From the NCBI RefSeq assembly GCF_007859935.1, contig NZ_SJPO01000001.1, forward strand, positions 434,001 through 498,000: a DNA stretch of 64,000 nucleotides, given 5' to 3'. This stretch comes from Posidoniimonas polymericola (GTDB lineage: Bacteria; Planctomycetota; Planctomycetia; Pirellulales; Lacipirellulaceae). This document shows positions 41,960 to 58,008 of this stretch, piece by piece. Within the stretch, counting starts at the first letter, position 1. Each line of letters opens with the position of its first letter. The position numbers and the translations under genes are program-made. Under the pieces are notes generated by a model. It was not told the DNA's origin and made no database searches. It worked only from the letters and a program-made list of their open reading frames with translations.

Positions 41960-41963
41960 CGGG

Positions 41964-42247: not shown

Positions 42248-42484
42248 ATGACCCGAGTCACCCACGACCGCGTGCGGCTGGCGCCTGCCGACTGGGGCGG
42301 GCTCTGCTCGCTCGCGTTGACCATTGCGATGCTCGTCGGCGCGACGCTCTACAAGGTGCACGACGCCGCGGCGGCGGTGCGGGCGCGGCAGGCGCGGATC
42401 GACGCCGAGCTCTCGCACCTCGACACGCAGGTCAAACGCCTGCAGCAGGACGTGCGGCTGCTATTGAGAAAGGACGAACCATGA
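42248..42484 (+). CDS. small single-helix membrane protein with coiled coil
   Basis: A 78-residue protein. One membrane helix (GGLCSLALTIAMLVGATLYK) is followed by a coiled coil (ARQARIDAELSHLDTQVKRL). The layout resembles phage spanin or holin-associated proteins, but also small anchors. The stop overlaps the next gene's start by 4 bases (ATGA), so the two are translationally coupled. The link to DNA-handling genes suggests anchoring of the ParB-like protein, or a lysis role; neither is proven. Confidence 0.65.
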   Translation: MTRVTHDRVRLAPADWGGLCSLALTIAMLVGATLYKVHDAAAAVRARQARIDAELSHLDTQVKRLQQDVRLLLRKDEP

Positions 42485-43038
42485 ACGTACGCGACCGCGT
42501 GACCGAACTCCGCCGTGTGCCGGCGGGCTGCCTCACGCCGCACCCGCTCAACTGGCGGACCCACCCCCAGGGGCAACGGGCGGCGATGCAGGCCGTGCTG
42601 GGCGAGCTCGGCTACGCCGCCGCGCTGGTCGCCCGCGAGCTGCCCGACGGATCGCTGCAGCTGATCGATGGGCACCTGCGGGCCGAGGTGACGCCCGACG
42701 CCAGCGTGCCGGTATTGCTCGTCGACCTCGACGACCTGGAGGCGGCCAAGCTGCTCGCCACGCACGACTCCATCGCCGCGCTGGCCGGCGTCGACCGGGA
42801 GTCGCTCGACGAGCTGCTCGGCCGCGTCGAGACCGAGAGCCCCGAGCTGCAGGCGGTGTTCGACGGGCTGGCCGCGCAGGCAAACCCGACCGGCGTCGAC
42901 GTGCCGGCCAACCTGCCTGACCTCGACATCCCCGAGACCTACCAGGTAGTGGTCGACTGCCGTGACGAGGCCGAACAGTTTGAGGTGTACCAAGCCATGC
43001 GAGAGGAGGGACGCAAATGCCGCGTGTTGACGCTGTAG
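42481..43038 (+). CDS. ParB/Srx-fold domain protein
   Basis: A 185-residue protein. LTPHPLNWRTHPQGQRAAMQ and the box LIDGHLRAEVT (GHxR type) are hallmarks of the ParB-like nuclease/CTPase domain. The C-terminal half (from about 100) is not typical and holds LDELLGRVETESPELQAV. There is no helix-turn-helix for parS binding, so it is not a chromosome-partition ParB. In phages such proteins are placed near packaging or methylase genes. It overlaps its neighbours by 4 bases (upstream) and 22 bases (downstream). Confidence 0.8.
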   Translation: MNVRDRVTELRRVPAGCLTPHPLNWRTHPQGQRAAMQAVLGELGYAAALVARELPDGSLQLIDGHLRAEVTPDASVPVLLVDLDDLEAAKLLATHDSIAALAGVDRESLDELLGRVETESPELQAVFDGLAAQANPTGVDVPANLPDLDIPETYQVVVDCRDEAEQFEVYQAMREEGRKCRVLTL

Positions 43039-44249
43039 TTGAGTGCCCGGTGCACGACTCGTTCCGGGTGCAGCAGGCCGCAGGCTTGTTCGACGTGCCG
43101 CTCGGCGAGCGGGCGAGCGAGCGGTTCACGGTCGAACTTCCCGACCTGGCAGACGACTGGCAGATCGGCCTGATTGTCGGCCCGTCAGGAAGCGGCAAGA
43201 CGACCGTCGCCCGCCACGCGTACGGCGAGCGGCTATTCAAGTCGGCCGACTGGCCGGCCGACCGCGCCGTGGTCGACGCCTTTGACCCGTTGCCGGTCCG
43301 CCAGACGGTTGGCCTGTTCACGGCCGTCGGGTTCAGCTCGCCGCCGTCATGGGTCAAGCCGTATCGAGTTCTATCGCGGGGGGAGCAGTTCCGCTGCGAC
43401 CTGGCCCGGGCATTGGCCATTGCGGATTGCAGATTGGGGACTGTGGATTCATCGGATTCTGCCCCAATCAAATCCGCCATCCGCAATCCCCAATCCGAAA
43501 TCCCCCTGGTCGTGTTCGACGAGTTTACGAGCGTCGTCGACCGCAACGTGGCGCGGGTCTGCTCGGCGGCGGTGGCGAAGGCAATCCGCAGCGGGCGAGT
43601 GCAGAAGCGGTTCGTCGCCGTGACCTGCCACTACGACGTCGCCGCGTGGCTGACGCCGGACTGGACGCTCGACATGGCCGACTGCCGGCTGGCTCGGGGG
43701 TGTCTTCGACGACCGCGCATCCGATTGGAGATCCATCGCTGCCGGCTGGAGGCGTGGCGGCTGTTTGCGCGGCATCACTATCTGACTGGCTCGCTCGCCC
43801 CGCAGGCCCGCTGCTACCTGGCGACCTGGGATGGAGCGCCGGTGGCGTTCTGCGCGACGCTGCCGGTGATCGGCCGCAAGGGGCACCGGCGGTTCACGCG
43901 GATCGTCACGCTGCCGGACTACCAGGGGATCGGTATCGGCTCGCGCGTCGTCGAGGCGGTCGCGCAGCTCCACCGCGAGGAGGGCCTGCGGATCAGCGTC
44001 ACCAGCAGCCACCCGGCATTGATCCAGCATTGCAAGGCGTCGCCCTACTGGCGGACTTCGAACGTGAAACGCAATCGCCAACGCCACGCCGGCACGCACC
44101 TGCACCCCAACTACCGCGACTGCACCGGCCGGATGGTGGTGTCGTTTGAGTACGTCGGTCCCACGGCTGGCGCCGTGGGCTGTTCACCATCCAAACCCGA
44201 ATTGCGTAGCCAACCAAATCCTAGCCCACGGCGCCAGCCGTGGGACTGA
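43017..44249 (+). CDS. ABC-type ATPase fused to GNAT acetyltransferase domain (COG2401-like)
   Basis: A 410-residue protein. The ATPase has Walker A GPSGSGKTT (55-63), signature LSRGEQ (119-124), Walker B LVVFDE (164-169) and a His switch TCHYD (203-207), but no membrane partner. Residues 240-375 form a GNAT domain with LPDYQGIGIGSRVVEAVAQL. Between signature and Walker B, residues 135-162 come from an AATCCGCAATCC-type chromosomal repeat that stays in frame. From residue 380 the tail is read from a CCCACGGCTGGCGCC palindrome. A ribosome site GAGGAGGG precedes the ATG, inside the upstream gene. The fused proteins are known only by sequence; function unknown. Confidence 0.85.
   Translation: MPRVDAVVECPVHDSFRVQQAAGLFDVPLGERASERFTVELPDLADDWQIGLIVGPSGSGKTTVARHAYGERLFKSADWPADRAVVDAFDPLPVRQTVGLFTAVGFSSPPSWVKPYRVLSRGEQFRCDLARALAIADCRLGTVDSSDSAPIKSAIRNPQSEIPLVVFDEFTSVVDRNVARVCSAAVAKAIRSGRVQKRFVAVTCHYDVAAWLTPDWTLDMADCRLARGCLRRPRIRLEIHRCRLEAWRLFARHHYLTGSLAPQARCYLATWDGAPVAFCATLPVIGRKGHRRFTRIVTLPDYQGIGIGSRVVEAVAQLHREEGLRISVTSSHPALIQHCKASPYWRTSNVKRNRQRHAGTHLHPNYRDCTGRMVVSFEYVGPTAGAVGCSPSKPELRSQPNPSPRRQPWD
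43422..43502 (+). repeat. AATCCGCAATC-type repeat inside a coding region
   Basis: A palindromic chain (GGATTGCAGATTGGGG ... CCCCAATCCG) inside the ABC-GNAT gene. A related segment is at 63423-63453 just before trpA. It keeps the frame (81 bases = 27 codons). Confidence 0.75.
44158..44246. repeat. palindrome, family E copy 2
   Basis: GTCCCACGGCTGGCGCCGTG near 44158 faces CACGGCGCCAGCCGTGGGAC ending at 44246, with a middle of about 50 bases. The stop codon of the ABC-GNAT gene lies in its right arm. Confidence 0.85.
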
Positions 44250-44265
44250 ACGACATCGCACACAA

Positions 44266-44709
44266 ATGCCAGAACTAACCGAACAACAGAAGCAAGACCT
44301 CTGCAACCTAGCCGCGGTCGGCTGCCGCCGCGAGACCGCCGCGCGGTTCGTCGGCCGCACCGTGGCCGAGATTGCCGAGGTCACGGAAGCCGATCCCGAG
44401 TTCGCGGTGCGGCTATGCCGTGCTGAGGCGACCGTCGAACTCGCCCACATGCGGTGTGTGCAACAGGCGATCCGGGACGAGAAGAACTACCGCGCCGCTA
44501 TCTGGTGGCTCGAGAACGCCGCGCCCGAGGGCTACCTCCGCCGCACGACCGACGCGCTCAGCCGGGCCGAATTGAACAAGCTGCTCGCGGCGATTATCGC
44601 CGCCATCGAGAGCGAGGTGGCCCGTCCCGAGGAGCGTGACGCGCTCGCCGGGCGGCTCAGCGAACTCACCACGCAGCAGGACGACATCATCAAGGAGGGG
44701 CGTTCATGA
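44266..44709 (+). CDS. phage terminase small subunit-like protein
   Basis: A 147-residue protein. LCNLAAVGCRRETAARFVGR and TVAEIAEVTEADPEFAVRLC form a helix-turn-helix of the small-terminase type. A helical part with LAHMRCVQQAIRDEKNYRAA and the segment AIWWLENAAPEGYLRRT follow, seen in several terminase small subunits. The ATG at 44266 is 16 bases after the ABC-GNAT stop. It would recognise the DNA to be packaged and load the large subunit. It overlaps the large-subunit gene by 4 bases (ATGA). Confidence 0.78.
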   Translation: MPELTEQQKQDLCNLAAVGCRRETAARFVGRTVAEIAEVTEADPEFAVRLCRAEATVELAHMRCVQQAIRDEKNYRAAIWWLENAAPEGYLRRTTDALSRAELNKLLAAIIAAIESEVARPEERDALAGRLSELTTQQDDIIKEGRS

Positions 44710-46283
44710 CAACCATCGGAGCATCCTTCCGGCCGCCTGGCTGGACCTCGCAGCGGGTCACAAGGGCGCTGCAGCAGGTCGCGCGAGCGGTGGCGGCCTC
44801 GGCGGCTGCGGTCCGTTCGGCAGACGCCGACGCGTCGCTCGACCTGCTGGCGTGGGGGCAGCGGTACCTGCCGCTGCATTTTTCCAAGCCGCCATCGGCC
44901 ATGCACCGTTGGCTGGCCGAGCACGCCGACGCGATGCAGGCCAGCCGCGGCGCGAAGGTCAACCTAATCGGCCCCCGCGGCGGCGCAAAGAGCACGGTCG
45001 GCACGCTGGCGGCGGTGCTGCGGGCGGCGGTCACGGGGCGCGAGAAGTACATCTGGATCGTGTCGGCCACGCACAGCCAGGCCCACAACCACCTGGCGAA
45101 CCTCAAGCACGAGCTGACCGACAACCGGCGGCTGGCGGCGGCCTACCCGGCGGCGACCGGGCCTGCCAAATGGTGGCGAGCGTCGTCAGTGCGGCTGGGG
45201 AACGATGTCGTGATCGAGGCGTTCGGCGTCGGCCAGCGCCTGCGGGGCCGCCGGATGGGCGCCGCGCGGCCAAGCCTGATTGTCTGCGACGACCTAGAGG
45301 ACGACCGCCACATCGCCTCCGCCGCGGCCCGCGACGTCAGCCGGCAGTGGTTCTTCGGCACGCTGCTCAAGGCGGGGGCCGCGGGCACAAACGTCATCAA
45401 CCTGGCCACCTCGCTGCACCGCGACGCACTCGCCCCGCGGCTGCACCAGACTCCCGGCTGGGCGTCGCGGGTGTTTGCGTCGATCGAGGAATGGCCCACC
45501 GAACAAAATCTCTGGGCCGAGTGGGAGCGGCTCTACTGCCTGCCCGACGAGGACGCCGCTCAGCAGGCCGCCGTGTACTACGAAGCGAACCGCGACGCGA
45601 TGCACGCCGGCGTGCGGGTGCTGTGGCCCGAGTCGGAGGACCTGCTCGCGCTGATGCGGCAGCGGGTCGAGGGGGGCGTCACGGCGTTCGAGCGCGAGAA
45701 GCAGGGCTGCCCGATCGACCCCGAGCGGTGCGAGTGGCCCGCCGAGTACTTTGGCGAGCACGCCTGGTTCGACGACTGGCCCGACGGCCTGCGGCTGCGG
45801 GTGATGGCGCTCGACCCGAGCAAGGGCGGCGACGCCCGGCACGGCGACTACTCGGCTTATGTGCTGCTCGGCGTCGGCCCCGGCGGTGTGCTGTACATCG
45901 ACGCCGACCTCGCGCGACGGCCGACCGCGCAGATGGTGGCCGATGGTGTGGGGCTGCTCGAGTCGTTCCGCCCGCGGTCGTTCGGCGTTGAGGCCAACCA
46001 GTGGCAGCAGCTCCTGGCGGCCGAGTTCCAGAGCGAACGCGCCCGCCGCGGCCTCTTGGGCCAGGCGATCGCCGAGATCCACAACCACACCAGTAAGGCG
46101 ATGCGGATCCGCCGGCTCGGCCCGTACCTGTCGCAGCGCCGCTTGCGTTTCCGCCGCGGCTCCCCCGGCGCCCGGCTGCTGGTCGAGCAGCTGCAGGACT
46201 TCCCCCTCGCCAGCCACGACGACGGCCCCGACGCCCTCGAGATGGCCGTGCGGTTAGCAGAGGAAATCTGGCAGAGCGGGTAA
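44706..46283 (+). CDS. phage terminase large subunit
   Basis: A 525-residue protein. The ATPase has Walker A GPRGGAKST (89-97), Walker B LIVCDDLE (191-198) and a coupling motif around INLATSLHRD. The nuclease domain of RNase H fold starts with MALDPSKGGDARHGDYSAYV (Asp370, Asp381) and ends with the acidic HDDGPDALEMAV. The length is typical of terminases. A strong ribosome site (AAGGAGGGG) lies just upstream. It should power DNA into the prohead and cut it. All motifs look intact, so packaging may still work. Confidence 0.92.
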   Translation: MTTIGASFRPPGWTSQRVTRALQQVARAVAASAAAVRSADADASLDLLAWGQRYLPLHFSKPPSAMHRWLAEHADAMQASRGAKVNLIGPRGGAKSTVGTLAAVLRAAVTGREKYIWIVSATHSQAHNHLANLKHELTDNRRLAAAYPAATGPAKWWRASSVRLGNDVVIEAFGVGQRLRGRRMGAARPSLIVCDDLEDDRHIASAAARDVSRQWFFGTLLKAGAAGTNVINLATSLHRDALAPRLHQTPGWASRVFASIEEWPTEQNLWAEWERLYCLPDEDAAQQAAVYYEANRDAMHAGVRVLWPESEDLLALMRQRVEGGVTAFEREKQGCPIDPERCEWPAEYFGEHAWFDDWPDGLRLRVMALDPSKGGDARHGDYSAYVLLGVGPGGVLYIDADLARRPTAQMVADGVGLLESFRPRSFGVEANQWQQLLAAEFQSERARRGLLGQAIAEIHNHTSKAMRIRRLGPYLSQRRLRFRRGSPGARLLVEQLQDFPLASHDDGPDALEMAVRLAEEIWQSG

Positions 46284-46331
46284 TGGGGCGACTTCAGAGC
46301 CTGTATGAATTACCGCCGCGACGCGGCGCAA

Positions 46332-46505
46332 AATCCCCCTCCCCTGTAGGGGGAGGGGTTAGGGGAGGGGGCTGAGTTGTCCGTTAGGGGCCGTAGTCCT
46401 GTGCCAAAAGCAATCGCTTGGCGCGTAGGCGGTCCGCTGTGGTGAGGCCAACCCCCTCCCTCAATCCCTCCCCCTGCCGGGGAGGGAGGACACATTCGCA
46501 ATCCC
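46332..46505. repeat. composite GC-rich repeat, copy 3
   Basis: It follows the terminase gene. G-rich box (GGGGAGGGGTTAGGGGAGGG), GTTGTCCGTTAGGGG, GTCCTGTGCC, C-rich box (ACCCCCTCCCTCAATCCCTC). A GAGGCGTAGCTCGCC copy (46522-46544) follows it. Confidence 0.85.
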
Positions 46506-46521
46506 TGCTCCTGCGTTCCCC

Positions 46522-46544
46522 GGCGAGGCGTAGCTCGCCGGCTA
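46522..46544. repeat. GAGGCGTAGCTCGCC repeat, copy 3
   Basis: A 23-base copy identical to the other three, 29 bases upstream of the portal ATG. Confidence 0.85.
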
Positions 46545-46572
46545 TTTCCCATCGTCGACTAGGAGTTGCTCA

Positions 46573-47952
46573 ATGCCCAACGACATCAACACCACCCTCA
46601 ACCAACTCCGCAGCCGGCTCTCGGAAGCCTGCGGCGACCTGTGGCACGACTTTGTCGATCCCCGCGACGCGTACGCCGGCGAGGACGGCGAGTGGTGGGC
46701 GCCGCTGGTCGCTAGCGGCGGCGGTGGGCAGCGTGTCGACACGCCGCTCGACGAGCACGGCCTGGCCCGCCTGCGGGACGAGTGCCGGCGGCTGGCGGTG
46801 CACAACGAGTTCGCGATCAACGGCCACGAGAACCGCGTCAATTACATCGTCGGCGCGGGGCACGTCTACCTGGCGACGCCGCGGAAGGGCCGCCACGCGC
46901 CCGACGCCTTGGCGGGCCGGGTGCAGGCGGTGCTCGACGAGTTCCAGCACGAGAACCGCTGGCACAGCCGCCAGCAGGAGGTGGTCCGCCGCCTCGACCG
47001 CGACGGCGAGGCCTTCCTGCGGTTCTTCACCGCCGGCGGCGTGACCCGGGTGCGGGTGATCGAGCCCGACCAGGTCGCCGCGCCAGAGCGGGCCCGGCAC
47101 GACCCGCGGGCGAGGTTTGGCGTCGTGACCGAGCCGGGCGACGTCGAACGCGTGCAGGGCTACTACGTCGACGGCCGCTTCGTGCCGGGCGGCGAGGTGC
47201 AGCACCGCAAGGCGAACGTCGACGCGAATGTGCGGCGCGGCCTGCCGCTGTACGCCGGCGTGCGGAGCAACCTCCGCCGGGCCGAGCGGCTGCTGCGGAA
47301 CATGAGCGCGGTGGCCGAGGTGCAGTCGGCCATCGCCCTGATCCGCCGGCACCGCACCGGCACGCGGACCGGCGTCGAGCAGTTTGCCGACCAGGCCGCG
47401 TCCAGCACGCGGACCGACGCCGGCGGCCGCACCGAGCGGATCACGCAGTACGGCCCCGGCGCGATCCTCGACGCGCCCGCCGGGCTGGAGTACGAGTTCC
47501 CCGCCACCGGCATCGACGCGTCACGCTTCGTGGCGGTGCTGCAGGCGGAGCTGCGGGCGATCGCCGCGCGGCTGGTGATGCCGGAGTTCATGTTCACGAG
47601 CGACGCGTCGAACGGCAGCTACGCGTCGACGATGGTCGCCGAGGGCCCGGCGGTGCGGATGTTCGAACGGCTGCAGGCCAACCTGATGCAGGACGACTGC
47701 GAGGTGATGTGGCGGGTGATCGACAACGCCGCCAGGGCAGGGCGGCTGCCCCGTGATGTCCGGCAGCAGATCGAGATCCAGATCACCCCGCCGTCGCTGC
47801 ACGTGCGTGACCCGCTGAAGGAAGCCCAGGTGAACAAGATCGCCCACGCGGCCGGCGTGCTTTCGCCCCAGACTTGGAGCCAACGGCTGGGGTTGGACTA
47901 CGACCAGGAGCAGATGAACCTAAAGATGCACGAGCATCGAGGGGAGCAATAG
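46573..47952 (+). CDS. phage portal protein
   Basis: A 459-residue protein. The N-terminus (GDLWHDFVDPRDAYAGEDGE) and the middle (FAINGHENRVNYIVGAGHVY, EFQHENRWHSRQQEVVRRLD, DGEAFLRFFTAGGVTRVRVI) follow the wing-stem pattern of portal proteins; the FMFTSDASNGSYASTMVAEG stretch is a typical crown/stem motif. The C-terminus (VLSPQTWSQRLGLDYDQEQM) matches portal ends. It would form the dodecameric DNA gate. The size is normal. Confidence 0.88.
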   Translation: MPNDINTTLNQLRSRLSEACGDLWHDFVDPRDAYAGEDGEWWAPLVASGGGGQRVDTPLDEHGLARLRDECRRLAVHNEFAINGHENRVNYIVGAGHVYLATPRKGRHAPDALAGRVQAVLDEFQHENRWHSRQQEVVRRLDRDGEAFLRFFTAGGVTRVRVIEPDQVAAPERARHDPRARFGVVTEPGDVERVQGYYVDGRFVPGGEVQHRKANVDANVRRGLPLYAGVRSNLRRAERLLRNMSAVAEVQSAIALIRRHRTGTRTGVEQFADQAASSTRTDAGGRTERITQYGPGAILDAPAGLEYEFPATGIDASRFVAVLQAELRAIAARLVMPEFMFTSDASNGSYASTMVAEGPAVRMFERLQANLMQDDCEVMWRVIDNAARAGRLPRDVRQQIEIQITPPSLHVRDPLKEAQVNKIAHAAGVLSPQTWSQRLGLDYDQEQMNLKMHEHRGEQ

Positions 47953-47984
47953 CTAGTCGCTGCGCAGCAGCGGCGGCGGCGGCC

Positions 47985-48185
47985 GTAGTCCTCCTCCCCT
48001 AAAGGGGGAGGGGCTAGGGGAGGGGGCTGAACGTTCAGAACGTGGACGCGTTCCTGTACCAGCCGGTGTCCTTACGCCCTCGTCAGGAATGAGACATCGC
48101 GATTTGCGACCCGACCCCCTCCCTTGGTCCCTCCCCCTTCCGGGGAGGGAGATAGAAGCTCGCCGCTTCGCGGCTTGCTCTGATG
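47985..48185. repeat. composite GC-rich repeat, copy 4
   Basis: This copy after the portal gene has the middle segment CTGAACGTTCAGAACGTGGA, TTCCTGTACC and GTCAGGAATGAGACATCGCG, a C-rich box and the tail GCTCGCCGCTTCGCGGCTTG. It is among the longest copies. Confidence 0.85.
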
Positions 48186-48376
48186 CAGCAGTCACTTGGA
48201 TTCACTCATTCACTTCGAGAGAAGCTCCACTTGCAAACCCAAACCCGGGGCCCCGGCGAGGCGTAGCTCGCCGGCTATTTTGGGTCGTTCTTGTACCCTC
48301 AAGCAAGGCCTCCACAAGATGTAGAAACGCCTACTTCTTTGTAGAAAAGAGCCGCGCGATGCAGAGAATAGAGAGC
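48186..48376. repeat. spacer with GAGGCGTAGCTCGCC repeat, copy 4
   Basis: The 23-base repeat is at 48254-48276. No gene is supported before the small DUF2292 gene. Confidence 0.75.
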
Positions 48377-48565
48377 ATGAGAACCACCCAAATGACAACA
48401 CGATCGCGGGCGGAAAAAATCGGTCAGGCCCAGGTGGTGCTGACCGAGGTGTTGAGCAAAATCGCCCGGCCGGGGTACTTCGGCGTGGCGACCCTGACGG
48501 TTCACCTGCAGGACGGACACGTGCAGCAGGTGAAGGTGATGACTGAAAAGCAGATCAAGGTTTAA
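48377..48565 (+). CDS. DUF2292 (YezD-like) small protein
   Basis: A 62-residue protein. The ATG at 48377 is preceded by GAGAG; start codons at 48359 and 48392 are possible alternatives. The C-terminal pattern (VLSKIARPGYFGVATLTVHL, QDGHVQQVKVMTEKQIKV) matches the YezD/DUF2292 family (I-x-x-I-x-Y/F-G-x-V-x-I-x-V-x-D-G-x-V-V-Q-I-E-x-x-E-K). Most relatives have about 60 residues and lie near sulfur-assimilation genes; here it is inside the phage-like block, which is unusual. Confidence 0.7.
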   Translation: MRTTQMTTRSRAEKIGQAQVVLTEVLSKIARPGYFGVATLTVHLQDGHVQQVKVMTEKQIKV

Positions 48566-48752
48566 CTCCCACTCCCTCCCCCTCTGGGGGAGGGCCGGGG
48601 TGGGGGCGCCCTGCTAGTGAGCATGACCCTTTGGTCCTAAAGCAGAGATCGGCCATGTAGCCAACGCACCCCCTCCCTAAACCTCCCCCAAAGGGGGAGG
48701 GGATTACTTAACGGTATCGAACGAGCCTGACCCAACTCAGGCATCCCCTTCG
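48566..48752. repeat. two half-units of the composite repeat
   Basis: C-rich/G-rich boxes at about 48572-48607 and 48668-48702 (for example CCCCTCCCTAAACCTCCCCC) in the spacer after the DUF2292 gene; the middle part is different from the full copies. Confidence 0.7.
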
Positions 48753-48795
48753 AGCCCACCCTGGCGCCCACGCGGCGCCTCGGTGGGCTTTTTTT
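48753..48795 (+). terminator. rho-independent terminator-like hairpin
   Basis: AGCCCACC (48753-48760) and GGTGGGCT (48782-48789) form the base and GGCGCC/GGCGCC the upper part of a stem; TTTTTT follows. It ends in GGGCTTTTTTTGTGCCC, the same string as at 38911-38925. Confidence 0.85.
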
Positions 48796-48816
48796 GTGCC
48801 CCGAGCGAGGAACCCA

Positions 48817-49704
48817 ATGCCCGAGACTTCTTCCCACCCCAACCCGCTGCAGGAGTTCGTCGACTCGCGCGACCAGCCGCTGCGGCTCGACCGCGCGGCG
48901 AGCGTGCTGCGGGGCGTCAAGCTGCTGGGGCTGCAGAGCCGCAACCAGCGGGAGTACCGCGAGGACGCCCTCCGCCGCGCGATGACGCTGTACGAGGGAG
49001 CCCGCGTGAACGTCAACCACCCTGCGGGCGACCCGCTCGCGCCGCGGGACTACCGCGACCGCCTGGGCGTGATCCGCGGGGTGGAACTGCGGACCGGCGA
49101 GGGCCTGTTCGGCTCGTTGCACTTCAATCCGAAGCACCCGTTGGCCGAGCAGCTCGCCTGGGACGCCGAGCACGCGCCGCACAACGTCGGGCTGTCGCAC
49201 AACGTGCTCGCCCGCACATCGCGGCACGACGGCCGCACAGTGGTCGAGTCGATCGAGCACGTGCAGAGCGTCGACCTGGTGGCCGACCCGGCGTCCACCG
49301 CGGGCTTGTTCGAGCACCAGTCGCCAGCCGCTCCGGGTGACACGAACGCCGAACTCGAGCAGCAGGTCGCCGAGCTAACACAAGCGGTCGAGCGGGCCGA
49401 GCACTCCGCGCGGGTCTACCGGCTGCTGGCCGAGCACGGCCTGCGGCCGTCTACCGGCGCCGGCAAAGAAGGCGTCAGTGGCGGCGCCGCTGTCAGCGAG
49501 GCCTTTATCGCCGCGCTGCACGCGACCCGCGACCCTGCCGCACTAGAGCAGCTTGTGGTCGACCGGGCCCGGCTGCTCGACGAGGCGACCCGGGAGAGCT
49601 TCGGCCCGATGACGCTGTCGCGAGAGCAGCCGCTGCTCGGCGAGTCGGCGCCCGAGCCGGTCAGCACCGGCGACTTTGTCCGGGCGATCACGCGTTCCAA
49701 GTAG
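48817..49704 (+). CDS. phage prohead protease, probably fused to scaffold
   Basis: A 295-residue protein. Residues 30-165 look like a phage maturation protease: VNVNHPAGDPLAPRDYRDRL (His68), GLSHNVLARTSRHDGRTVVE (Ser127) and the common end VQSVDLVADPASTAGLFE. Residues 172-215 are a coiled coil (ELEQQVAELTQAVERAEHSA), and the C-terminal 80 residues are a helical part, as in proteases with an attached scaffold (delta) domain. A GAGG ribosome site lies before the ATG at 48817; an in-frame GTG at 48796 is less likely. It would shape and mature the capsid. Confidence 0.83.
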   Translation: MPETSSHPNPLQEFVDSRDQPLRLDRAASVLRGVKLLGLQSRNQREYREDALRRAMTLYEGARVNVNHPAGDPLAPRDYRDRLGVIRGVELRTGEGLFGSLHFNPKHPLAEQLAWDAEHAPHNVGLSHNVLARTSRHDGRTVVESIEHVQSVDLVADPASTAGLFEHQSPAAPGDTNAELEQQVAELTQAVERAEHSARVYRLLAEHGLRPSTGAGKEGVSGGAAVSEAFIAALHATRDPAALEQLVVDRARLLDEATRESFGPMTLSREQPLLGESAPEPVSTGDFVRAITRSK

Positions 49705-49795
49705 CCGCTGGTTCTCCGAGCCGGCGGCAAACGCGGAGGAGCCGCGGCGCTTAGCAATGACCCCTGTTTTGTCTTCTACGAGAGGAGCCCCTTCT

Positions 49796-50269
49796 ATGGC
49801 GAACACAATGCGATGGCGCTACGGCGCAACCAACCCCGTGGTGCTGGCGGTCGACTCGGCGACCGTCATCGAGATTGGCGACCTGGTGTATCTCGCCACC
49901 GACGACGCCCGTCCGGCTGGCGACCAGCTCGACCAGGGGACCGAGTCGCTCAACCAGCAGACGCTGCACGCCGAGTTTGCCGGCGTGGCGATGCAGCACA
50001 GCGCCGCGGGCGACACCCAGCCGATCCGCGTCGCGACGACCGGCGTGTTCGATTTCCCGTGCGACGCGGCGACCTTCGAGGTCGGCGACCTGATCGGCCC
50101 GATCGAGAACGCCGCCGGCGACGCCCTCGAGAACCAGAAGGTCAAGGCCGTGGCCGGCATCGGCGCTTCGGTCGGCCGCTGCGCCGCCCGCGCGCCCGAC
50201 GCCGCCACCCGCGTGCTGGTCGACGTCGTCAGCAGCCTGATGCGCGGCGGCGTGCAGGCCGTGGCGTAG
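49796..50269 (+). CDS. capsid decoration (cement) protein-like, DUF2190 type
   Basis: A 157-residue beta-rich protein: PVVLAVDSATVIEIGDLVYL, VAMQHSAAGDTQPIRVATTG, VFDFPCDAATFEVGDLIGPI and RVLVDVVSSL. These follow DUF2190-type decoration proteins (usually about 110-160 residues) that sit outside HK97-type capsids. The ATG at 49796 has GAGAGGA just upstream. Position between protease and capsid gene fits. It may stabilise the expanded capsid. Confidence 0.78.
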   Translation: MANTMRWRYGATNPVVLAVDSATVIEIGDLVYLATDDARPAGDQLDQGTESLNQQTLHAEFAGVAMQHSAAGDTQPIRVATTGVFDFPCDAATFEVGDLIGPIENAAGDALENQKVKAVAGIGASVGRCAARAPDAATRVLVDVVSSLMRGGVQAVA

Positions 50270-50275
50270 TTCACA

Positions 50276-50415
50276 ACAAATCCCCCTCCTCTTGATGGGG
50301 AGGGGCTAGGGGAGGGGTGAGGACCCGCGAGGCAGGTCAGCCTTGAGTGCTTGTTTGGGCAAACCACGTCCGAACTTCTCCCCCCACCCTAACCCTCCCC
50401 ACGAGGGGGAGGGGA
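50276..50415. repeat. two half-units of the composite repeat
   Basis: A G-rich box (GGGGAGGGGCTAGGGGAGGG) at about 50282-50318 and C-rich box (CCCCCACCCTAACCCTCCCC) at about 50381-50415 lie between the decoration and capsid genes. Confidence 0.8.
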
Positions 50416-50449
50416 TGGACATCTTTCATTTCTATCAGGAAACAAACCT

Positions 50450-51604
50450 ATGCTGAACTATCGCGAACTCAAACGCCGCTACGACCTCGACGGCCCGCAG
50501 CAGACGGTCGAGCACCTCACCACCGCGCTCGAGGAGCAGCAGCTCCGCCCCGAGGACTTCAGCCTGCGGGACCTGGCCGAGGCGCTCGTGCCCGACGGGC
50601 GCGAGTGGGTCCGGACGCTCGACCCGCGGGCCGACTCGGTCAGCCTGCGAGAAGCCGGCGACGGCGTCGACGTGACCGCCTTCCAGAATGTCGCGGGCCA
50701 GGTGGTGCGGTCGAAGGTGCTGGCCGCCTACCAGCAGGAGGCGTTCGTCCTCTCCAAGCTGGTCGACACCATTCCGACGCGGCTCGACGGCGAGAAGATC
50801 CCCGGCGCGACCCGCGTCGCCGACTCGATCGACCAGGTCGAGCCCGGCATGCCGTTCCCGAGCCTCGGCTTCGGCGAGGACTACATCGAAACGCCCTCGA
50901 CCTCCAAGCGTGGATTCATCGTGCCGGTGACCCGCGAGGCGGTCTTCTTCGACCGCACCAACCTGGTGCTCTCCCGGGCGGCCGAGGTGGGCGAGATCCT
51001 CGGACTGAACAAGGAGAAGCGGCTGCTCGACCTGCTCGTGGGCGTCACCAACAACTACAAGCACAACGGCGTCGCGTACGACACGTACCAGGCGAGCACG
51101 CCGTGGGTCAACGAGCTGACGGGCAACGCGCTGGACGACTGGACCAACGTCGACGCGGCCGAGCAGCTGCTGGCGGACATGCTCGACCCGGCGACCGGCG
51201 AGCCGGTGCTGCTGGGCGCGACGCACGTGCTGGTGATGCCGGCCTACCGGCACGCGGCGCACCGCGTGTTCAACGCGTCGGAGATCGCCTACACCGGCTC
51301 CGGCAGCGGCACGACCACCAGCGCGGCCAACCCGCTGGGCAACTACACGGTGAAGGAGAGCCGGCTGGCCTACCGACGGGTCATTGCTGCGGGCGAGGCG
51401 GCAGCCGACGCCAAGAAGTGGTGGTTCCTGGGCGACCTACGCCGCGCGTTCGCCTACATGGAGAACTGGCCGATCACGGTCACCCAGGCGCCGGTCGGCA
51501 GCGAGGCCGAGTTCACCAACGACATCATGCTCCGCTTCAAGGCGAGCGAACGCGGCGCCGCCGCGGTGCTCAACCCGCGGTACGTCGTGAAGTGTACGGG
51601 CTAG
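50450..51604 (+). CDS. phage major capsid protein (HK97-fold)
   Basis: A 384-residue protein. An N-terminal helical arm (about 1-60) is followed by an E-loop/P-domain pattern: FQNVAGQVVRSKVLAAYQQE, GEDYIETPSTSKRGFIVPVT, REAVFFDRTNLVLSRAAEVG, and the late MPAYRHAAHRVFNASEIAYT and ENWPITVTQAPVGSEAEFTN. These match the Mu-type/HK97-fold major capsid family in arrangement. The next genes are connectors, so the order protease, decoration, capsid, adaptor is that of a phage head module. The length suggests no missing part. Confidence 0.88.
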   Translation: MLNYRELKRRYDLDGPQQTVEHLTTALEEQQLRPEDFSLRDLAEALVPDGREWVRTLDPRADSVSLREAGDGVDVTAFQNVAGQVVRSKVLAAYQQEAFVLSKLVDTIPTRLDGEKIPGATRVADSIDQVEPGMPFPSLGFGEDYIETPSTSKRGFIVPVTREAVFFDRTNLVLSRAAEVGEILGLNKEKRLLDLLVGVTNNYKHNGVAYDTYQASTPWVNELTGNALDDWTNVDAAEQLLADMLDPATGEPVLLGATHVLVMPAYRHAAHRVFNASEIAYTGSGSGTTTSAANPLGNYTVKESRLAYRRVIAAGEAAADAKKWWFLGDLRRAFAYMENWPITVTQAPVGSEAEFTNDIMLRFKASERGAAAVLNPRYVVKCTG

Positions 51605-51640
51605 GTCGAGCGTTGAACGCGGCCGAGTAGTTTGCCCTAC

Positions 51641-51860
51641 GGAATCCCCCTCCCCTGAAGGGGGAGGGGTTAGGGGAGGGGGCTAAACGTTCAGGACGAG
51701 AACGTGCTCCTGTACTCGATGCTTTTTACGGCACTCGTCAGGAATGGGACATCGCGCTACACGACCCGACCCCCTCCCCCATAAAGCCAGAATTGGCCCT
51801 CCCCCTTGGGGGAGGGAGATGAGTTCGCGCCGCTGCGCGGCTTGCTGCGATTGGCAATGC
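51641..51860. repeat. composite GC-rich repeat, copy 5
   Basis: G-rich box, CTAAACGTTCAGGACGAGAA, CTCCTGTACTCG, CGTCAGGAATGGGACATCGC, C-rich box (CCGACCCCCTCCCCCATAAA) and the tail CGCCGCTGCGCGGCTTGCTG. It lies after the major capsid gene. Confidence 0.85.
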
Positions 51861-51904
51861 CGCGTTGAATCGCACCTTCCGCCTTCGATGACGTTTGCTC
51901 GCTG

Positions 51905-51985
51905 ATCCTCACCCCACCCCCCAGCCCCTCCCCATCAAGGGGAGGGGAGCTAATCCCTTCCTCCCCCATTGGGGGAGGGGATTTT
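51905..51985. repeat. half-units of the composite repeat
   Basis: C-rich and G-rich boxes (CCCCACCCCCCAGCCCCTCC, GGGGAGGGGAGC, GGGGGAGGGGATTTTTAAGG) run up to the next gene; the last one overlaps its ribosome site. Confidence 0.8.
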
Positions 51986-52000
51986 TAAGGAGCCCGACTC

Positions 52001-52219
52001 ATGCCAACCGACGCGACCCAACTCCAAACCATCCGTCAGCAGACGCTGGACCTGATTGAGGAGATCCGATTGAACCCCAAGCCGACCTACTGGCTCGACG
52101 GCCAGCGGGTGCACTGGCAGGAGTACGTCGAGTCGCTCGAGCGGTCGGTCGACTGGTGCGACAAGAAGCTGTTCGAGTGCGAGGTGTTTGAAATCCGTAG
52201 CCAAGGAGTCTGTCGCTGA
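52001..52219 (+). CDS. small phage protein (72 aa)
   Basis: A 72-residue soluble protein: LQTIRQQTLDLIEEIRLNPK, then PTYWLDGQRVHWQEYVESLE and DWCDKKLFECEV. The W-x-D-G-x-x-V-x-W-x-x-Y segment recurs in short phage proteins beside head-tail connector genes. The stop overlaps the next start by 1 base (TGATG), so translation is coupled. AAGGAG precedes the ATG. The function is unknown; a role at the portal vertex is possible. Confidence 0.7.
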   Translation: MPTDATQLQTIRQQTLDLIEEIRLNPKPTYWLDGQRVHWQEYVESLERSVDWCDKKLFECEVFEIRSQGVCR

Positions 52220-52866
52220 TGACCGTACTGAATGCAGAAGCTGATTTTGCGAGCGTGATCGATGGCCTGCAGTCGGTCACCGTGCAGCGTGAAGCGGGCG
52301 GGTCGGTTGTCGTGGCCGCGGCTCGGCTGGTGAGTCGCGCGGTGGGCGAAGAAGACTCGTCGGGCGGCGGGGTGCTGATCGAAGACCTGGTGTGGGACCT
52401 TCCGTGGCCAGACGGCGCCGCGTCGATCGACGTCGGCGATGAGATCGAGCACGGCGCGAGCGGCAGCTGCGTCGTGCTGCGGGTCGAGCAGCGTGGGCCG
52501 GGCGTGCGGTACCGCTGCACGGCCCGCGACGTCACCATCAGCGATGCGACCAGCGTGCTGGTGGACCTCGAGAGCCCGGTCTGGGAGGACCTTGGCTCCG
52601 GGCCCGAGATCACCGGCTGGACCACGATCGCCGCCGACGTGCCGGCCCACATCCAGCCGGCGGTTGTCGAGCACGACTACAGCGGCGACCCGACCGTGTC
52701 GGCCAGCACGTTCACGGTTTCGTGCGAGGCGGTCGACGACCTCGAGCTGTGCGAGCGCGTCGTCGCGGCCGACGGGGCCGAGTACCGCGTCGACCGCGTC
52801 CTCGACGACGGCCGCATCGACAAGCTGCCGGTGCTGGAGGTGACCCAGACGGTTGCCGCGAGTTAG
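52219..52866 (+). CDS. phage head-tail connector/adaptor-like protein (215 aa)
   Basis: A 215-residue beta-rich protein: SVIDGLQSVTVQREAGGSVV, IEDLVWDLPWPDGAASIDVG, SCVVLRVEQRGPGVRYRCTA, and EYRVDRVLDDGRIDKLPVLE. No catalytic motif. Its position after the capsid gene and its size fit a head completion protein. After it no tail tube, tape measure or baseplate gene is seen before the opposing regulator at 53007. Family membership is inferred from position and fold impression. Confidence 0.6.
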   Translation: MTVLNAEADFASVIDGLQSVTVQREAGGSVVVAAARLVSRAVGEEDSSGGGVLIEDLVWDLPWPDGAASIDVGDEIEHGASGSCVVLRVEQRGPGVRYRCTARDVTISDATSVLVDLESPVWEDLGSGPEITGWTTIAADVPAHIQPAVVEHDYSGDPTVSASTFTVSCEAVDDLELCERVVAADGAEYRVDRVLDDGRIDKLPVLEVTQTVAAS

Positions 52867-53006
52867 CCCTTTGTGACGCTACTCCGCTCGGGCGTGAGCC
52901 GAAAAACGAGGACCGGCTCGACGCGCGGAGTGGGGTGGAAATCAGGGTTGTCGTGACGCGTCGTGCCTGCCCCCATTTCAAGATCACCGAGCGGAAGATC
53001 GCCGCA

Positions 53007-53579: not shown

Positions 53580-53712
53580 GCTGGCTGGGGAACGGCCCGC
53601 CGGGTTGAGGGAGCTGGGTGTGCGGGCGATATACAAAGGTACACTCAGGCTGGGCGGCCGTCAAATCTGGGGCTGATTGGCCCGCGGTTGATCGGAGTCG
53701 TCATGAGAGCGT

Positions 53713-53811
53713 GGGTGCCGGGGGCGCTCCCGTAAGGGAAGCCCCCGACGCGTGCCGCACGGGGCTAGCTAGCTCCGGGGCTTCCGCTGCCGCGGAGCGC
53801 CCCGGGCACCC
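53713..53811. repeat. palindromic repeat, family C copy 2
   Basis: Arms 53713-53730 and 53794-53811 pair with one mismatch and match the arms at 18937-19038. Between them are GGAAGCCCCCGACGCG and CGGGGCTTCC. Confidence 0.85.
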
Positions 53812-54579: not shown

Positions 54580-54760
54580 CTGATACCGCGACCTAAGATG
54601 GTAGTACGAACCACTCAATTGAGCGTTGCATGGTGATGGCACCGAAGCCGACCGGCGGAAGGCCGGTTTCCGTGCCCGAGGGCTTCCAGCCAGGAACTCA
54701 TTTACCGCGCAACCATCAGCACTCAAGTCTAGCACGCCAGGCTCCAAGGCGACAATCAGG

Positions 54761-55819
54761 ATGACCAGCACGACCCGATCCCGTATCACGCTCGCCCTCT
54801 CTGCACTCGTGGTCCCGCTGGGGGCCGCGTTAACCGGTTGCGGCGGCAGCGGCAGCAGCACTCCAGCCAAGCAGGAAGTGGTGGTCTACACCGCGCTCGA
54901 CCAGGAGTTCTCCAAGACGCTGTTCGACGCCTTTACGCGGCAGACCGGCATCGAGGTCAAGCCGAAGTTCGACGGCGAGTCGACCAAGACCACCGGGCTG
55001 GTGGCGGCGCTGATCGCCGAGAAGGACCGCCCCCGCAGCGACGTGTTCTGGAACAACGAGGCCCTGCACACGCTGCGGCTCAAAGAGCTCGGCCTGTTGG
55101 CGCCGAGCCCGACAGCCGCCGCGGCCGACTACCCGCCCGAGGCCCAGGACCCCGCGGGGCTGTGGCACGGCTTCGCCGCCCGCGCGCGGGTGCTGATCGT
55201 CAACAACAACATCGTCCCCGAGGCGCGGCGGCCCGACTCGATCAACGACCTGGTCGACCCGCAGTGGTACGACCGGGTGGGGGTCGCCAAGCCGTTGTTC
55301 GGCACCACGGCGACCCACGCGGCGTGCCTGTTCGTCGCGCTCGGCGAGGAGGAAGCCAAGGCGTACTTCGAGGGCGTCAAGCGCAACGCGCGGATCCTGT
55401 CCGGCAACCGCCAAGTCGCCCGCGCGGTGGCCAGTGGCCAGCTGGCGTTCGGCCTGACCGACACCGACGACGCGATGCTCGAGGTTGAGTCGGGCGCGCC
55501 GGTCTCGATTATCTACCCCGACCAGCAGGACGACGAGCTCGGCACGCTGTTCATCCCCAACACGCTTTCGATGCTCAAGGGCTGCCCGAACCCTGGACCG
55601 GCGCAGCAGCTAATCGACTACTTGCTGTCGCCCGACATCGAAGGCCGCCTGGTGATGGGCCCGAGCGCCCAGATCCCGCTCAACAGCAAGACCGCAGCCA
55701 AGCCGCGGGTCGAAACCCCGGCGACCGTGAAGGCCATGGACGTCGACTTCGCGGCGGCTGCTGAGGCTTGGGACAGCGCGGCCGAGTTCCTGCGGGATGA
55801 GTTTACTGCCGGTAACTAG
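54761..55819 (+). CDS. iron(III)-type ABC transporter binding lipoprotein
   Basis: A 352-residue lipoprotein. The signal ends in a lipobox (GAALTGC), with Cys as first mature residue. The domain EVVVYTALDQEFSKTLFDAF, RPRSDVFWNNEALHTLRLKE, PDSINDLVDPQWYDRVGVAK, GDLAFGLTDTDDA-like QLAFGLTDTDDAMLEVE and FIPNTLSMLKGCPNPGPAQQ is that of Fe(3+)/2-aminoethylphosphonate-type (FutA/AfuA) binding proteins. The ATG at 54761 is chosen. No permease or ATPase gene is next to it, so its partner must lie elsewhere. The substrate is inferred from the family. Confidence 0.88.
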   Translation: MTSTTRSRITLALSALVVPLGAALTGCGGSGSSTPAKQEVVVYTALDQEFSKTLFDAFTRQTGIEVKPKFDGESTKTTGLVAALIAEKDRPRSDVFWNNEALHTLRLKELGLLAPSPTAAAADYPPEAQDPAGLWHGFAARARVLIVNNNIVPEARRPDSINDLVDPQWYDRVGVAKPLFGTTATHAACLFVALGEEEAKAYFEGVKRNARILSGNRQVARAVASGQLAFGLTDTDDAMLEVESGAPVSIIYPDQQDDELGTLFIPNTLSMLKGCPNPGPAQQLIDYLLSPDIEGRLVMGPSAQIPLNSKTAAKPRVETPATVKAMDVDFAAAAEAWDSAAEFLRDEFTAGN

Positions 55820-55831: not shown

Positions 55832-56134
55832 ATGAAGCGTCGCGGCTACGCCGCGCATGATGCTGCTATTGCCGCGCCGGCACAGAGCAAGCCGCGCAGC
55901 GGCGCGACTTGATCTCCCTCCCCCATGGGGGGAGGGATTAAGGGAGGGGGTCGGGTTGCAAAGCACGTTGTCGCGCGCCTGACTATCGTCGAGCTGCTAG
56001 ATCAATACAGGAGAGTTTTCAATTAACGGAGAATTCAGCCCCCTCCCCTAGCCCCTCCCCCTTCCGGGGAGGGGGATTTAGGCTCGCCGCTTCGCGGCTT
56101 GCTCTGAGCGCGCGGCGGAGCCGCGACGCTTCAT
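55832..56134. repeat. 303-base element with 16-bp terminal inverted repeats (composite repeat, copy 6)
   Basis: The perfect 16-bp arms are ATGAAGCGTCGCGGCT (55832-55847) and its complement (56119-56134). An inner 12-bp pair (GAGCAAGCCGCG, 55885-55896; complement 56093-56104) and G/C-rich boxes enclose a middle part that, on the minus strand, reads CTGAATTCTCCGTTAATTG and CTCCTGTAT like the other copies. It is the only copy in inverted orientation and the best bounded one. No open frame of note is inside. Confidence 0.85.
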
Positions 56135-56148: not shown

Positions 56149-56799
56149 TCAATACCCGTAATGGGCCGCGGCGTGGAGCTTGGCTTGCTCCTCTTCGTTC
56201 AGCCCTTCGATCTTCAACGGGTTGAAGCCGTGGTCGCGGGTGAGGTGGGTCCAGAAGGTCATGCCGCTGACGCCGGCCTCGGGGATCTCGACCGTGGTCA
56301 TCCACTCACGGAGCTCCTCGGCGTTGAGGCTGCGGAGCCACTTGCTGGGGGGCCGGCCGTGGCGGGCGCGGCGGACGGCGAGCGGCTCGCCCGGATCGCT
56401 GGGCGGGTCGTCTGGTTCTGGGATCGGCTCGGCGTCGTCCATGACGGACTGCTTGCCGAAGCGCACCTCAGCGGGCACAAGCTCGTCGGGCAGGTAGCCT
56501 GTCTTCTCGGTGTACCGCTCGCCGTTGTGTTTCTTGATGGGCGTGGTGATGCCGGTCACCCGCCACTTGCCGTCGACGAGCTCCTCGCGCTCGAACCACC
56601 GCCAGTAGTCGTCCTCGCCGATCGTCCAGTGCACGGCAGCCTCGGTCGACTCGGGGTCGACCGGCGGGGCGGGCGTCGGGTTGGGCTCGGTCGCGCGCAT
56701 CGCCAGCGCTGCTAGCTGGTCGAGCCCCTGGGAGCCGAGTTTTTCTGACAGGCCAAACAGGCCCATCCCGACCATGAAGGCGAAGCGGCGACGATTCAT
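56149..56799 (-). CDS. hypothetical protein with Tat-like N-terminus (216 aa)
   Basis: The start MNRRRFAFMVGMGLFGLSEK has a twin-Arg-like stretch followed by a hydrophobic segment, so export by Tat is plausible; an ATG at 56862 would add 21 residues. The mature part is acidic and Pro-rich in the centre, with WTIGEDDYWRWFEREELVDG, VTGITTPIKKHNGERYTEKT and HAAAHYGY at the end. HTHLTRDHGFNP-like residues are present (FWTHLTRDHGFNPLKIEGLN). No known family. A repeat element lies 14 bases past the stop. Confidence 0.7.
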   Translation of the reverse strand: MNRRRFAFMVGMGLFGLSEKLGSQGLDQLAALAMRATEPNPTPAPPVDPESTEAAVHWTIGEDDYWRWFEREELVDGKWRVTGITTPIKKHNGERYTEKTGYLPDELVPAEVRFGKQSVMDDAEPIPEPDDPPSDPGEPLAVRRARHGRPPSKWLRSLNAEELREWMTTVEIPEAGVSGMTFWTHLTRDHGFNPLKIEGLNEEEQAKLHAAAHYGY

Positions 56800-57063
56800 T
56801 TCTGACAGGCCCGGGTAGCGGCGGGGGAGGTATTCGACCGGAAACAACCGTGGAATAAACATAGCCCGGGCCCGGCGACCAGGAGCGGCGCCCCCAAGCG
56901 GGGTGTGCTCGCCGAAACATCCCTCAAGGTCGGCGCAACCGGCACCGATACCTGTTAGGTCGGACCCTCCTGCGCAGGGACAGCGGCCCGTCCGACGGCG
57001 TCCCCGCTCGCTGCTAGCAGGCGGGGAAAGAAGTTCGATGAACCTCAGCGCAAGGACGCGCTC

Positions 57064-58008
57064 ATGTCGGCGACCTACAGCAGCTTTGACACCCTGACGA
57101 TTGGCTCCTACCAGGGCGAGGCGTCGCACGGCGGCCCGATGCTGCCGGTGCTCGCGGCGATCCCCGCGATTGGACCGCAGGCCAAGGCCGCCGCCCCGGC
57201 GCCGCCGGTCGAGGCCCCACCGGCCCCGCTGGTGCGGAACGAGGCCGCGCACGCCGCCGAGGTAGCGCCGCCGCGGTCCCAGGCCGCCGCGCCGCAACCG
57301 CCGGCGCACCAGGCTCCAGAGACGCCGGCGCCCACGCCCGCGGCCCCGCTGCCGCGTCCCCAATTCAATCCGGCGCCAGTTGCCGACGCCGCGCCAGACC
57401 CTTCGGAGGACCTCTGGCAGGAGTCCTCTTGGGCGGCCCAGCTGTTGTCGCTCGAGACCACGCTTCGGCCGCACGCCCGGCTAATCCTGCTGGCGGCGTT
57501 GATCGCGATTACCGGTCTGATGCTGGTCGTGTTGCGCTCGCCGGTCGAGGTGCTGCCGGACTCTCTGCCCAGCAACATGGTCGACTCTACGGAGGTTCCA
57601 GCCCTTAGCGAGGTGCAGGGCGCCGTGATGGTGGCGGCCGACGCGGGGTCGTCCGCTCCGCGGCTCGACCCGCTGCCGTCGATGCCCGGCGTGTCGATGC
57701 CGGGCGCGTCGCCGGCGCGGCCGTCCGCCACCGTGACCGCGGCCGGCCCGGCCAGCATGCCGGTGGCCCCGTCAGGACGGGCCGGGATGGCCGACATCAC
57801 GCCGGTCGAACCGCACCGCACCGCGTCGGTGGAAATCGAAACCACCCCGGCGGCCGCGGCCGAGCGGGAAGTACGGGTCGCCCAGGCGCCCGCCTACCCG
57901 AGCACCAGCTACACGGCGCCGGCCTGGCCGGTCGAGACCTCGACCACGCCGCCCCACGCCCAACTGCAGTGGCCCACCAAACCCTCTAGCGCAGGCATGC
58001 AGCAATGA
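57064..58008 (+). CDS. single-pass membrane protein, Pro/Ala-rich (314 aa)
   Basis: A Pro/Ala-rich N-terminal half of about 120 residues, one membrane helix (LILLAALIAITGLMLVVL, about residues 140-158) and a Pro/Ser/Thr-rich C-terminal half. No enzymatic motif. It is the first of three adjacent plus-strand genes; its stop overlaps the next start by 4 bases (ATGA). With its P-loop-like and ExeA-like neighbours it resembles the membrane component of an exopolysaccharide export set (inference by context). Confidence 0.7.
   Translation: MSATYSSFDTLTIGSYQGEASHGGPMLPVLAAIPAIGPQAKAAAPAPPVEAPPAPLVRNEAAHAAEVAPPRSQAAAPQPPAHQAPETPAPTPAAPLPRPQFNPAPVADAAPDPSEDLWQESSWAAQLLSLETTLRPHARLILLAALIAITGLMLVVLRSPVEVLPDSLPSNMVDSTEVPALSEVQGAVMVAADAGSSAPRLDPLPSMPGVSMPGASPARPSATVTAAGPASMPVAPSGRAGMADITPVEPHRTASVEIETTPAAAAEREVRVAQAPAYPSTSYTAPAWPVETSTTPPHAQLQWPTKPSSAGMQQ

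Follow-up and report, generated by a model that had tools for sequence, protein, structure and literature searches.

A C-rich palindromic core nested in a probably older inverted repeat of Posidoniimonas polymericola, and a candidate DUF559 endonuclease partner

We analysed a 64,000-nt stretch of the Posidoniimonas polymericola genome (contig NZ_SJPO01000001.1, positions 434,001 to 498,000; hereafter the window), in which a composite of nested inverted repeats at positions 55832-56134 fills the gap between two converging genes with stops at 55819 and 56149. The locus holds the following features.

54626-55819, plus strand: upstream gene, extracellular solute-binding protein (SBP_bac_6), converging on the element; start approximate
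55832-55856, plus strand: outer 25-nt palindrome, REP-like unit 'a', left copy, holding the reported 16-bp end; the palindrome also stands alone elsewhere in the genome
55883-56106, no strand assigned: core element, comprising the middle hairpins, the C-rich doublet and the interior; proposed ORF-less mobile derivative
55883-55906, plus strand: middle GC-rich hairpin CAGAGCAAGCCGCGCAGCGGCGCG, its first 14 bases being the reported inner pair; several core copies have it at their left edge
55913-55950, plus strand: left C-rich unit, a diverged variant with an outward hairpin (55915-55937), a connector and an inward third arm AGGGAGGGGG
55951-56038, no strand assigned: core interior, its centre variable in a 14-copy alignment that also shows blocks of partial conservation (TCGGGT..GCAAA, CCTGAC, TACAGGA, TAACGGA)
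56039-56078, minus strand: right C-rich unit, with inward arm CCCCCTCCCC, connector TAG and outward hairpin CCCCTCCCCC/GGGGAGGGGG
56083-56106, minus strand: middle GC-rich hairpin, right inverted copy
56110-56134, minus strand: outer 25-nt palindrome, right inverted copy
56149-57474, minus strand: downstream ORF converging on the element, taken as the longest frame; no Pfam match in its 3′ part; region conserved in the sister species

The original prediction, made from the letters alone, described this locus as a 303-base MITE-like unit with perfect 16-bp terminal inverted repeats around an inner 12-bp pair. The repeats themselves are real and somewhat longer than described. The 16-mer ATGAAGCGTCGCGGCT occurs exactly at 55832-55847 (plus strand) and 56119-56134 (minus strand), and the three other matches to it in the window each carry 2-3 mismatches. 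The outer inverted pair extends to 25 nt with one mismatch (55832-55856 and 56110-56134), the inner pair consists of 14 perfect bases (55883-55896 and 56093-56106), and the outer pair also encloses an imperfect inverted pair of 76 nt (79%). Folding of the focal strand far exceeded that of its shuffles as DNA (z = -11.6) and as RNA (z = -13.7), with 0 of 100 shuffles equal in each case, indicating that the structure is not a product of chance. An Rfam scan of the window gave 0 matches at gathering scores. No target-site duplication was seen at the focal copy, whose flanks read GCGGCTC and AGTTCGC, in agreement with the prediction.

The distribution of the ends speaks against the 303-base unit. 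Genome-wide, the exact 16-mer has 11 copies, and with at most 2 mismatches it occurs at 51 places, versus 8 for the reversed pattern. Two of the 11 exact copies make up the focal pair, another two lie head to head in a tight doublet of 46 bp at C1:235949-235994, and seven are single: one at the C1:501897 copy discussed below and six elsewhere, of which the one on contig C11 adjoins a C-rich unit. The focal pair is thus the only inverted copy with exact ends in the window, as had been stated, but not in the genome. The prediction had proposed a search for further inverted pairs at about 300 bp; a query with all 303 bases found 71 matches in this genome, and the focal one alone spans both ends. 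The best other copy (C1:501897-502146, 88%) covers query positions 55-303 only and therefore lacks the left outer palindrome. The syntenic gap in the sister species (G001, same genus) retains the outer pair, with 1 and 2 mismatches in the 16-mers, around an interior that holds one C-rich hairpin and is otherwise different and shorter. The pair is therefore no insertion boundary in the sister species, and its presence in both species around different interiors suggests that it probably predates their split and that the interior was remodelled. We rejected the 303-base unit on the strength of the one-ended best copy, the single end motifs and the sister pair around another interior. The outer 25-nt palindromes are members of an unrelated REP-like family that probably stood at this convergent intergenic site before the two species separated.

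The C-rich units inside the composite belong to a dispersed family. In each unit, a connector such as TAG links a hairpin to an additional, third copy of one of its arms; connectors read by eye include CTAG, TTAG and other variants, with no consistent GTAG tag. There are 44 exact CCCTCCCCTARCCCCTCCC units in the 6.26-Mb genome, a count of exact matches for which the backward-read pattern, itself resembling the unit, is no independent control. Units less than 600 bp apart form 10 inverted pairs, all with the hairpins facing out, and 2 direct pairs, and an alignment of 14 core copies covers the C-rich units and some of the interior. By simple ORF picks, 12 of 15 core copies (7 in the window, 1 in stretch L046, 2 in L052 and 5 in L056) are clear of ORFs; two of the others overlap weak ORFs (42035-42418 and 48089-48565), and the third extends a few bases into an ORF. 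In some copies (L052, L056 and window 51801-51850) an extra small hairpin, for example CCCGT..ACGGG, replaces the connector. The other copies in the window that we compared with the sister species are listed here.

40895-41070, minus strand: C-rich doublet; other-subtype doublet at the sister-species site
41962-42135, minus strand: C-rich doublet; other-subtype doublet at the sister-species site
46315-46490, minus strand: core copy; sister-species site without C-rich hairpin
47970-48184, minus strand: core copy; sister-species site without C-rich hairpin
50277-50416, minus strand: C-rich doublet; one hairpin at the sister-species site
51626-51851, minus strand: core copy with further hairpins after it; sister-species site with two differently arranged hairpins

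Several other repeats and genes surround these copies. C-rich elements occupy several gaps in a run of phage-type genes at 38900-52900 (portal PF05136, capsid PF25209, cement PF09956), a stretch that is syntenic in the sister species and hence kept vertically, perhaps as a GTA-like element or a domesticated prophage. Inverted palindromes GGGTGCCGGGGGCGCTCC..GGAAGCCCCCGAC lie at 18937-19040 and 53711-53811 and also beside a Y1 match at C3:191995, and are perhaps a RAYT-linked REP family. Y1 genes (L009, L013 and loci of relatives) are flanked by palindromes of the CCCAGGGCG..GCCCTGGG type and others. A 30-nt palindromic repeat ending GGCGAGGCGTAGCTCGCCGGCTA.. at 21306, 42202, 46518 and 48251 is another REP-like family, and a repeat protein at 36829-38532 has a 102-nt period and looks TPR-like by eye.

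At three places in this genome, inverted C-rich units enclose a short ORF (C3:481891-482355, C3:483052-483512 and C4:470992-471483), and these three ORFs are all of the PF04480 (DUF559) matches that we found in it. All three genes are thus bracketed by inverted C-rich units in the orientation seen in the focal core, and little besides the DUF559 ORF fits between the ends of each element. The two C3 genes read as bare ORFs between palindromes, and the C4 copy (C4:471081) has an internal stop and still lies beside C-rich palindromes. The focal core interior yielded no DUF559 remnant (90 of 100 shuffles score as well). The original prediction had proposed looking for a transposase with matching ends; what carries matching ends here is the DUF559 endonuclease gene, and among 35 loci of the Y1 family, the one transposase family searched, none has these ends on both sides.

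We then compared the 300 nt left of each DUF559 gene with the reverse complement of the 300 nt to its right, using 100 dinucleotide shuffles as reference. Flanking inverted repeats beat all 100 shuffles at 51 of 65 stand-alone DUF559 loci: 17/19 in the family, 19/22 in the phylum (Planctomycetota) and 15/24 in named records of a plasmid collection, the last comprising Alphaproteobacteria (7/12), Deinococcota (4/4), Cyanobacteriota (4/5), Betaproteobacteria (0/1) and Gammaproteobacteria (0/2). The 14 loci without a significant pair include the entire beta- and gammaproteobacterial sample (E. coli, N. gonorrhoeae and Photobacterium), and among the 51 loci that passed, a few (L197, L198, L211, L216) have pairs that are marginal or consist of something other than C-rich palindromes. 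Random slots passed in 18 of 1000 cases (6/400 in the window, 6/300 in other stretches of this genome, which had been chosen for holding repeats or Y1 genes, and 6/300 in relatives). None of 30 control genes for solute-binding proteins passed, nor did any of 12 fused or weak DUF559 domains. Two further DUF559 loci outside the 65, the C4 gene of this genome (in L063) and one on contig C3 of G006 (in L255), beat all shuffles.

The 65 loci were selected as follows. From the family, 11 of 30 loci were left out (L167-L174, L177, L180 and L181: loci at contig edges, the two pieces of a broken gene, and weak domains that are part of larger frames); from the phylum, L204-L210 were left out as weak or partial, and L158 had already been counted. 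Twelve of these 18 left-out loci make up the fused or weak control, which excludes L206 and L208 (contig ends) and L167, L168, L177 and L180. The plasmid-collection sample comprises 24 of the 34 records with DUF559 matches.

Palindromes and proteins also vary together. Similarity between repeats correlates with similarity between proteins (Mantel r 0.348, reached in 0 of 5000 permutations, with kinship not controlled), and genomes with several DUF559 genes (G006, G019, G052) carry different palindromes that are matched within each element. C-rich matches occur in 8 of 10 family genomes with a DUF559 gene versus 5 of 13 without a full one (one-sided p = 0.057), a count that takes the broken gene of G018 as a DUF559 gene; genome G004 has 32 C-rich matches and only two weak DUF559 domains. 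The G018 gene lies in two pieces (C1:1923818-1924133), still beside C-rich palindromes.

The genes sit in varied contexts. In Deinococcus psychrotolerans, a DUF559 element lies between paaD and paaZ, where Deinococcus sp. QL22 has 83 bp; no exact junction or target-site duplication was found between these two, as the spacers are too diverged. Three other Deinococcus records carry DUF559 at differing points between hpaB and hpaE. In Sphingomonas, DUF559 occurs between sufB and sufC, and also within a transhydrogenase gene run, and an Azospirillum sufB/sufC record, taken unaligned, is without the DUF559 insert. Phage records gave 2 DUF559 matches, and in IMG/VR no relative was confirmed.

A few arrangements were recorded by inspection. 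In Deinococcus (L213, L215, L226) and Synechocystis (L216), the unit appears by eye to be reversed relative to Planctomycetota, with the third arm outside and the hairpin next to the gene. Among cyanobacterial plasmids, a DUF559 gene with C-rich palindromes adjoins a DUF1156 gene in L216 and L219 and lies inside one long annotated CDS in L233; in L234, where the pair is not significant, the DUF559 gene adjoins the BREX gene pglX. On plasmid pTHN of Novosphingobium sp. THN1 (L212), CGTCATTTGC..GCAAATGCCA flank the DUF559 gene and look by eye like a CGTC-tagged REP.

Six residues are invariant in 15 DUF559 sequences (E28, D57, E68, D70, H74, D81), and the DUF559 profile matches two PDB entries: 3hrl, endonuclease-like (4.3e-35), and 3r3p, a 'mobile intron protein' (1.3e-5), which we take to be I-Bth0305I; further matches have E 0.11 or worse. 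Homology to a homing endonuclease is thus found via 3r3p. From its sequence, stand-alone DUF559, at roughly 110-150 residues, is predicted to be a Vsr-like endonuclease of the EDxHD/PD-(D/E)XK type. One report (PMC9403480) places a DUF559 gene in the EDxHD homing family. In another, the Caulobacter DUF559 protein VsrA is argued to be a likely mismatch-repair enzyme, as a prediction (PMC12907096), and such a role is a real alternative function for DUF559.

The comparison with the sister species rests on conserved synteny: the window from 38.8 to 64 kb is collinear with contig C5 of G001 over most of its length, and L056 with C4 of G001 except for the stretch before site B. We counted hairpins with a fixed pattern, in slices widened equally in both genomes, at 12 syntenic gaps that hold at least two hairpins here. 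The sister species has none at six (46.3k, 48.0k, A, B, C and D), one at three (50.3k, the focal site and E) and two at three (40.9k, 42.0k and 51.6k), a two-genome comparison in which gain and loss look alike. At site D, G001 keeps a weak look-alike of the hairpin, and the gaps at A and B differ in other sequence too. No exact junctions or target-site duplications could be determined at the sister-species sites, the spacers being too diverged. The gaps at 40.9k and 42.0k contain doublets in both genomes, of a different subtype in each species; the presence of two hairpins in the sister species at 3 of 12 sites suggests that the sites are shared hot spots or old. The prediction had also called for empty sites in relatives: the outer pair proved to be kept in the sister species, and sites without a C-rich hairpin, by the pattern used, were found there opposite core-type doublets at 6 of 12 gaps.

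We also asked which DUF559 ends the hairpins at these 12 sites resemble. Of the 26 units in this genome, 21 are nearer to its own ends; in the sister species, 6 of 9 units are likewise nearer to the ends of that species (one-sided Fisher p = 0.015). The references were six ends from three genes here and two ends from one gene in the sister species, and the units are not independent, so that the match is support and not proof. At the focal site, the right unit scores 39 against the ends of this genome and 20 against those of the sister species, and the left unit matches weakly, at 25 and 22. On contig C3, the locus with two DUF559 elements measures about 1.7 kb between matched flanks, and the corresponding stretch of the sister species measures about 110 bp, with one hairpin and no gene. 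Single hairpins at sister-species sites are compatible with a target that was not invaded or has decayed.

Taken together, most of the stand-alone DUF559 genes tested lie between inverted repeats, units of this kind recur in the focal core with matching orientation, and some sites in the relative are without the element. We therefore favour, with a probability of roughly 60%, the reading that the core at about 55883-56106 is REPIN-like and non-autonomous, an ORF-less form derived from a DUF559/palindrome element and nested within an older pair from another palindrome family. The description of the locus as a non-autonomous mobile element accordingly carries over to the core, which has many copies, sister sites without it and a candidate partner, and not to the 303-base unit.

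Four other explanations were weighed against this one. A true 303-base MITE that ends in the 16-bp (25-nt) repeats and was moved by an unseen transposase would account for the perfect inverted ends, the strong fold and the one near-full copy with one of the ends. It is very unlikely, since the end motif belongs to a palindrome also found solo, the only near-full copy lacks one end, the outer pair surrounds another interior in the sister species and the focal copy has no target-site duplication; several full-length copies sharing both terminal repeats were not found, and the palindrome core (at most 3 mismatches) occurs at 0 of 35 Y1 loci, L136 alone having the 16-mer with 2 mismatches. It is quite unlikely that the C-rich doublets are REPINs whose mobility is provided in trans by a RAYT (Y1) transposase encoded in this genome. 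They do look like REPINs, this genome has six Y1 matches and Y1 is present in 39 of 40 family genomes, but no Y1 locus among the 35 has the C-rich unit on both sides (L138 has one match at up to 4 mismatches), and 19 of them have significant flanking inverted repeats of their own, with other sequences. We rejected a Y1 transposase as the partner of the C-rich ends on this count.

The hairpins might instead be bidirectional terminators or mRNA-stability elements under selection, beside which DUF559 genes merely land. The focal and C1:501897 copies lie between convergent genes, most copies are clear of picked ORFs (12/15), and hairpins occur at 6 of 12 sister-species sites as well. We regard this as unlikely because it leaves unexplained the matched, element-specific pairs around DUF559 genes in many lineages, the six sister sites without a hairpin and the tendency of units to match the DUF559 ends of their own species; a DUF559 origin is compatible with later use of inserted hairpins by the host. 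DUF559 genes and palindromes could also both be cargo of a third mobilising agent, such as replication slippage, recombination between palindromes or a phage. Palindromes generally recombine easily, and copies lie beside the portal, cement and capsid genes of the window. We consider such an agent quite improbable, as the three elements of this genome hold little but the DUF559 ORF and the association holds across several phyla and operon contexts. It is possible that another enzyme mobilises the core in trans.

For the favoured DUF559 reading, the observed ends and orientation shared by core and genes, the DUF559 association and the sister-species differences suggest a scheme in which cleavage, copying and the direction of change are inferred, drawn by analogy with REP/RAYT and homing. 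The autonomous form would be a stand-alone DUF559 endonuclease gene between same-orientation C-rich units. The palindrome would serve as the recognition site of the nuclease, with the connector that separates the arms as a possible point of contact; the recognition sequence of Vsr is CTWGG, and one idea is that a CTAGG connector resembles it. The nuclease would nick or cut at solo or donor palindromes, and during repair whatever lies between two palindromes would be copied into the break, so that doublets arise with or without the nuclease gene. The shared hairpin ends suggest that a DUF559 enzyme, rather than a classical transposase, may spread the C-rich repeat family.

Such an element would resemble several known systems without matching any of them. 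With REP/REPIN sequences and their RAYTs, as described by Bertels and Rainey 2011 (PMC3116915) and Di Nocera 2013 (PMC3733652), it shares the inverted pairing of palindromic units dispersed between genes, an autonomous gene with cognate palindromes on either side and the presence of different families within one genome. It differs in that the partner is a DUF559 endonuclease and not a Y1 HUH transposase (at the 35 Y1 loci, the C-rich unit is found on both sides at none and on one side at one), and in that the C-rich unit is a hairpin with a third arm copy that lacks a consistent GTAG tag. EDxHD homing endonucleases such as I-Bth0305I (PMC3943268) are similar in that the DUF559 profile matches 3r3p and the sister C3 site with its single palindrome resembles an uninvaded target; unlike them, DUF559 elements appear to come without intron or intein, occupy many dispersed sites, have inverted palindromic ends and are accompanied here by many ORF-less derivatives. 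Bacterial MITEs are likewise short, non-coding and intergenic with inverted ends, but here no target-site duplication was seen, the ends are palindromes that also stand alone, and the Y1 genes searched include no transposase with the same ends. CGTC-tagged REPs, which Di Nocera 2013 (PMC3733652) states to have no dedicated transposase, are comparable in this respect, and a CGTC-like palindrome flanks the Novosphingobium DUF559 gene (one locus, by eye); the C-rich unit itself differs from them in sequence.

At the title and abstract level we found no literature linking DUF559 genes to flanking palindromes, in a search that covered subscription journals thinly, so that a prior description is possible. 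More broadly, and tentatively, with somewhat less than even confidence, we propose that genes for stand-alone DUF559 endonucleases represent the autonomous members of a mobile-element class of their own, which crosses phyla and has palindromic ends. They would spread by palindrome cutting and gap copying, would generate C-rich hairpin repeats in many bacterial genomes and may also provide the partner that CGTC-tagged REPs are missing. REP-like palindromes rank among the repeats commonly found on bacterial chromosomes, and some families, the CGTC REPs being the case stated by Di Nocera 2013, are without a known mobiliser. If the proposal is true, many orphan 'endonuclease domain-containing' genes would gain a function, and the repeats would gain an origin.
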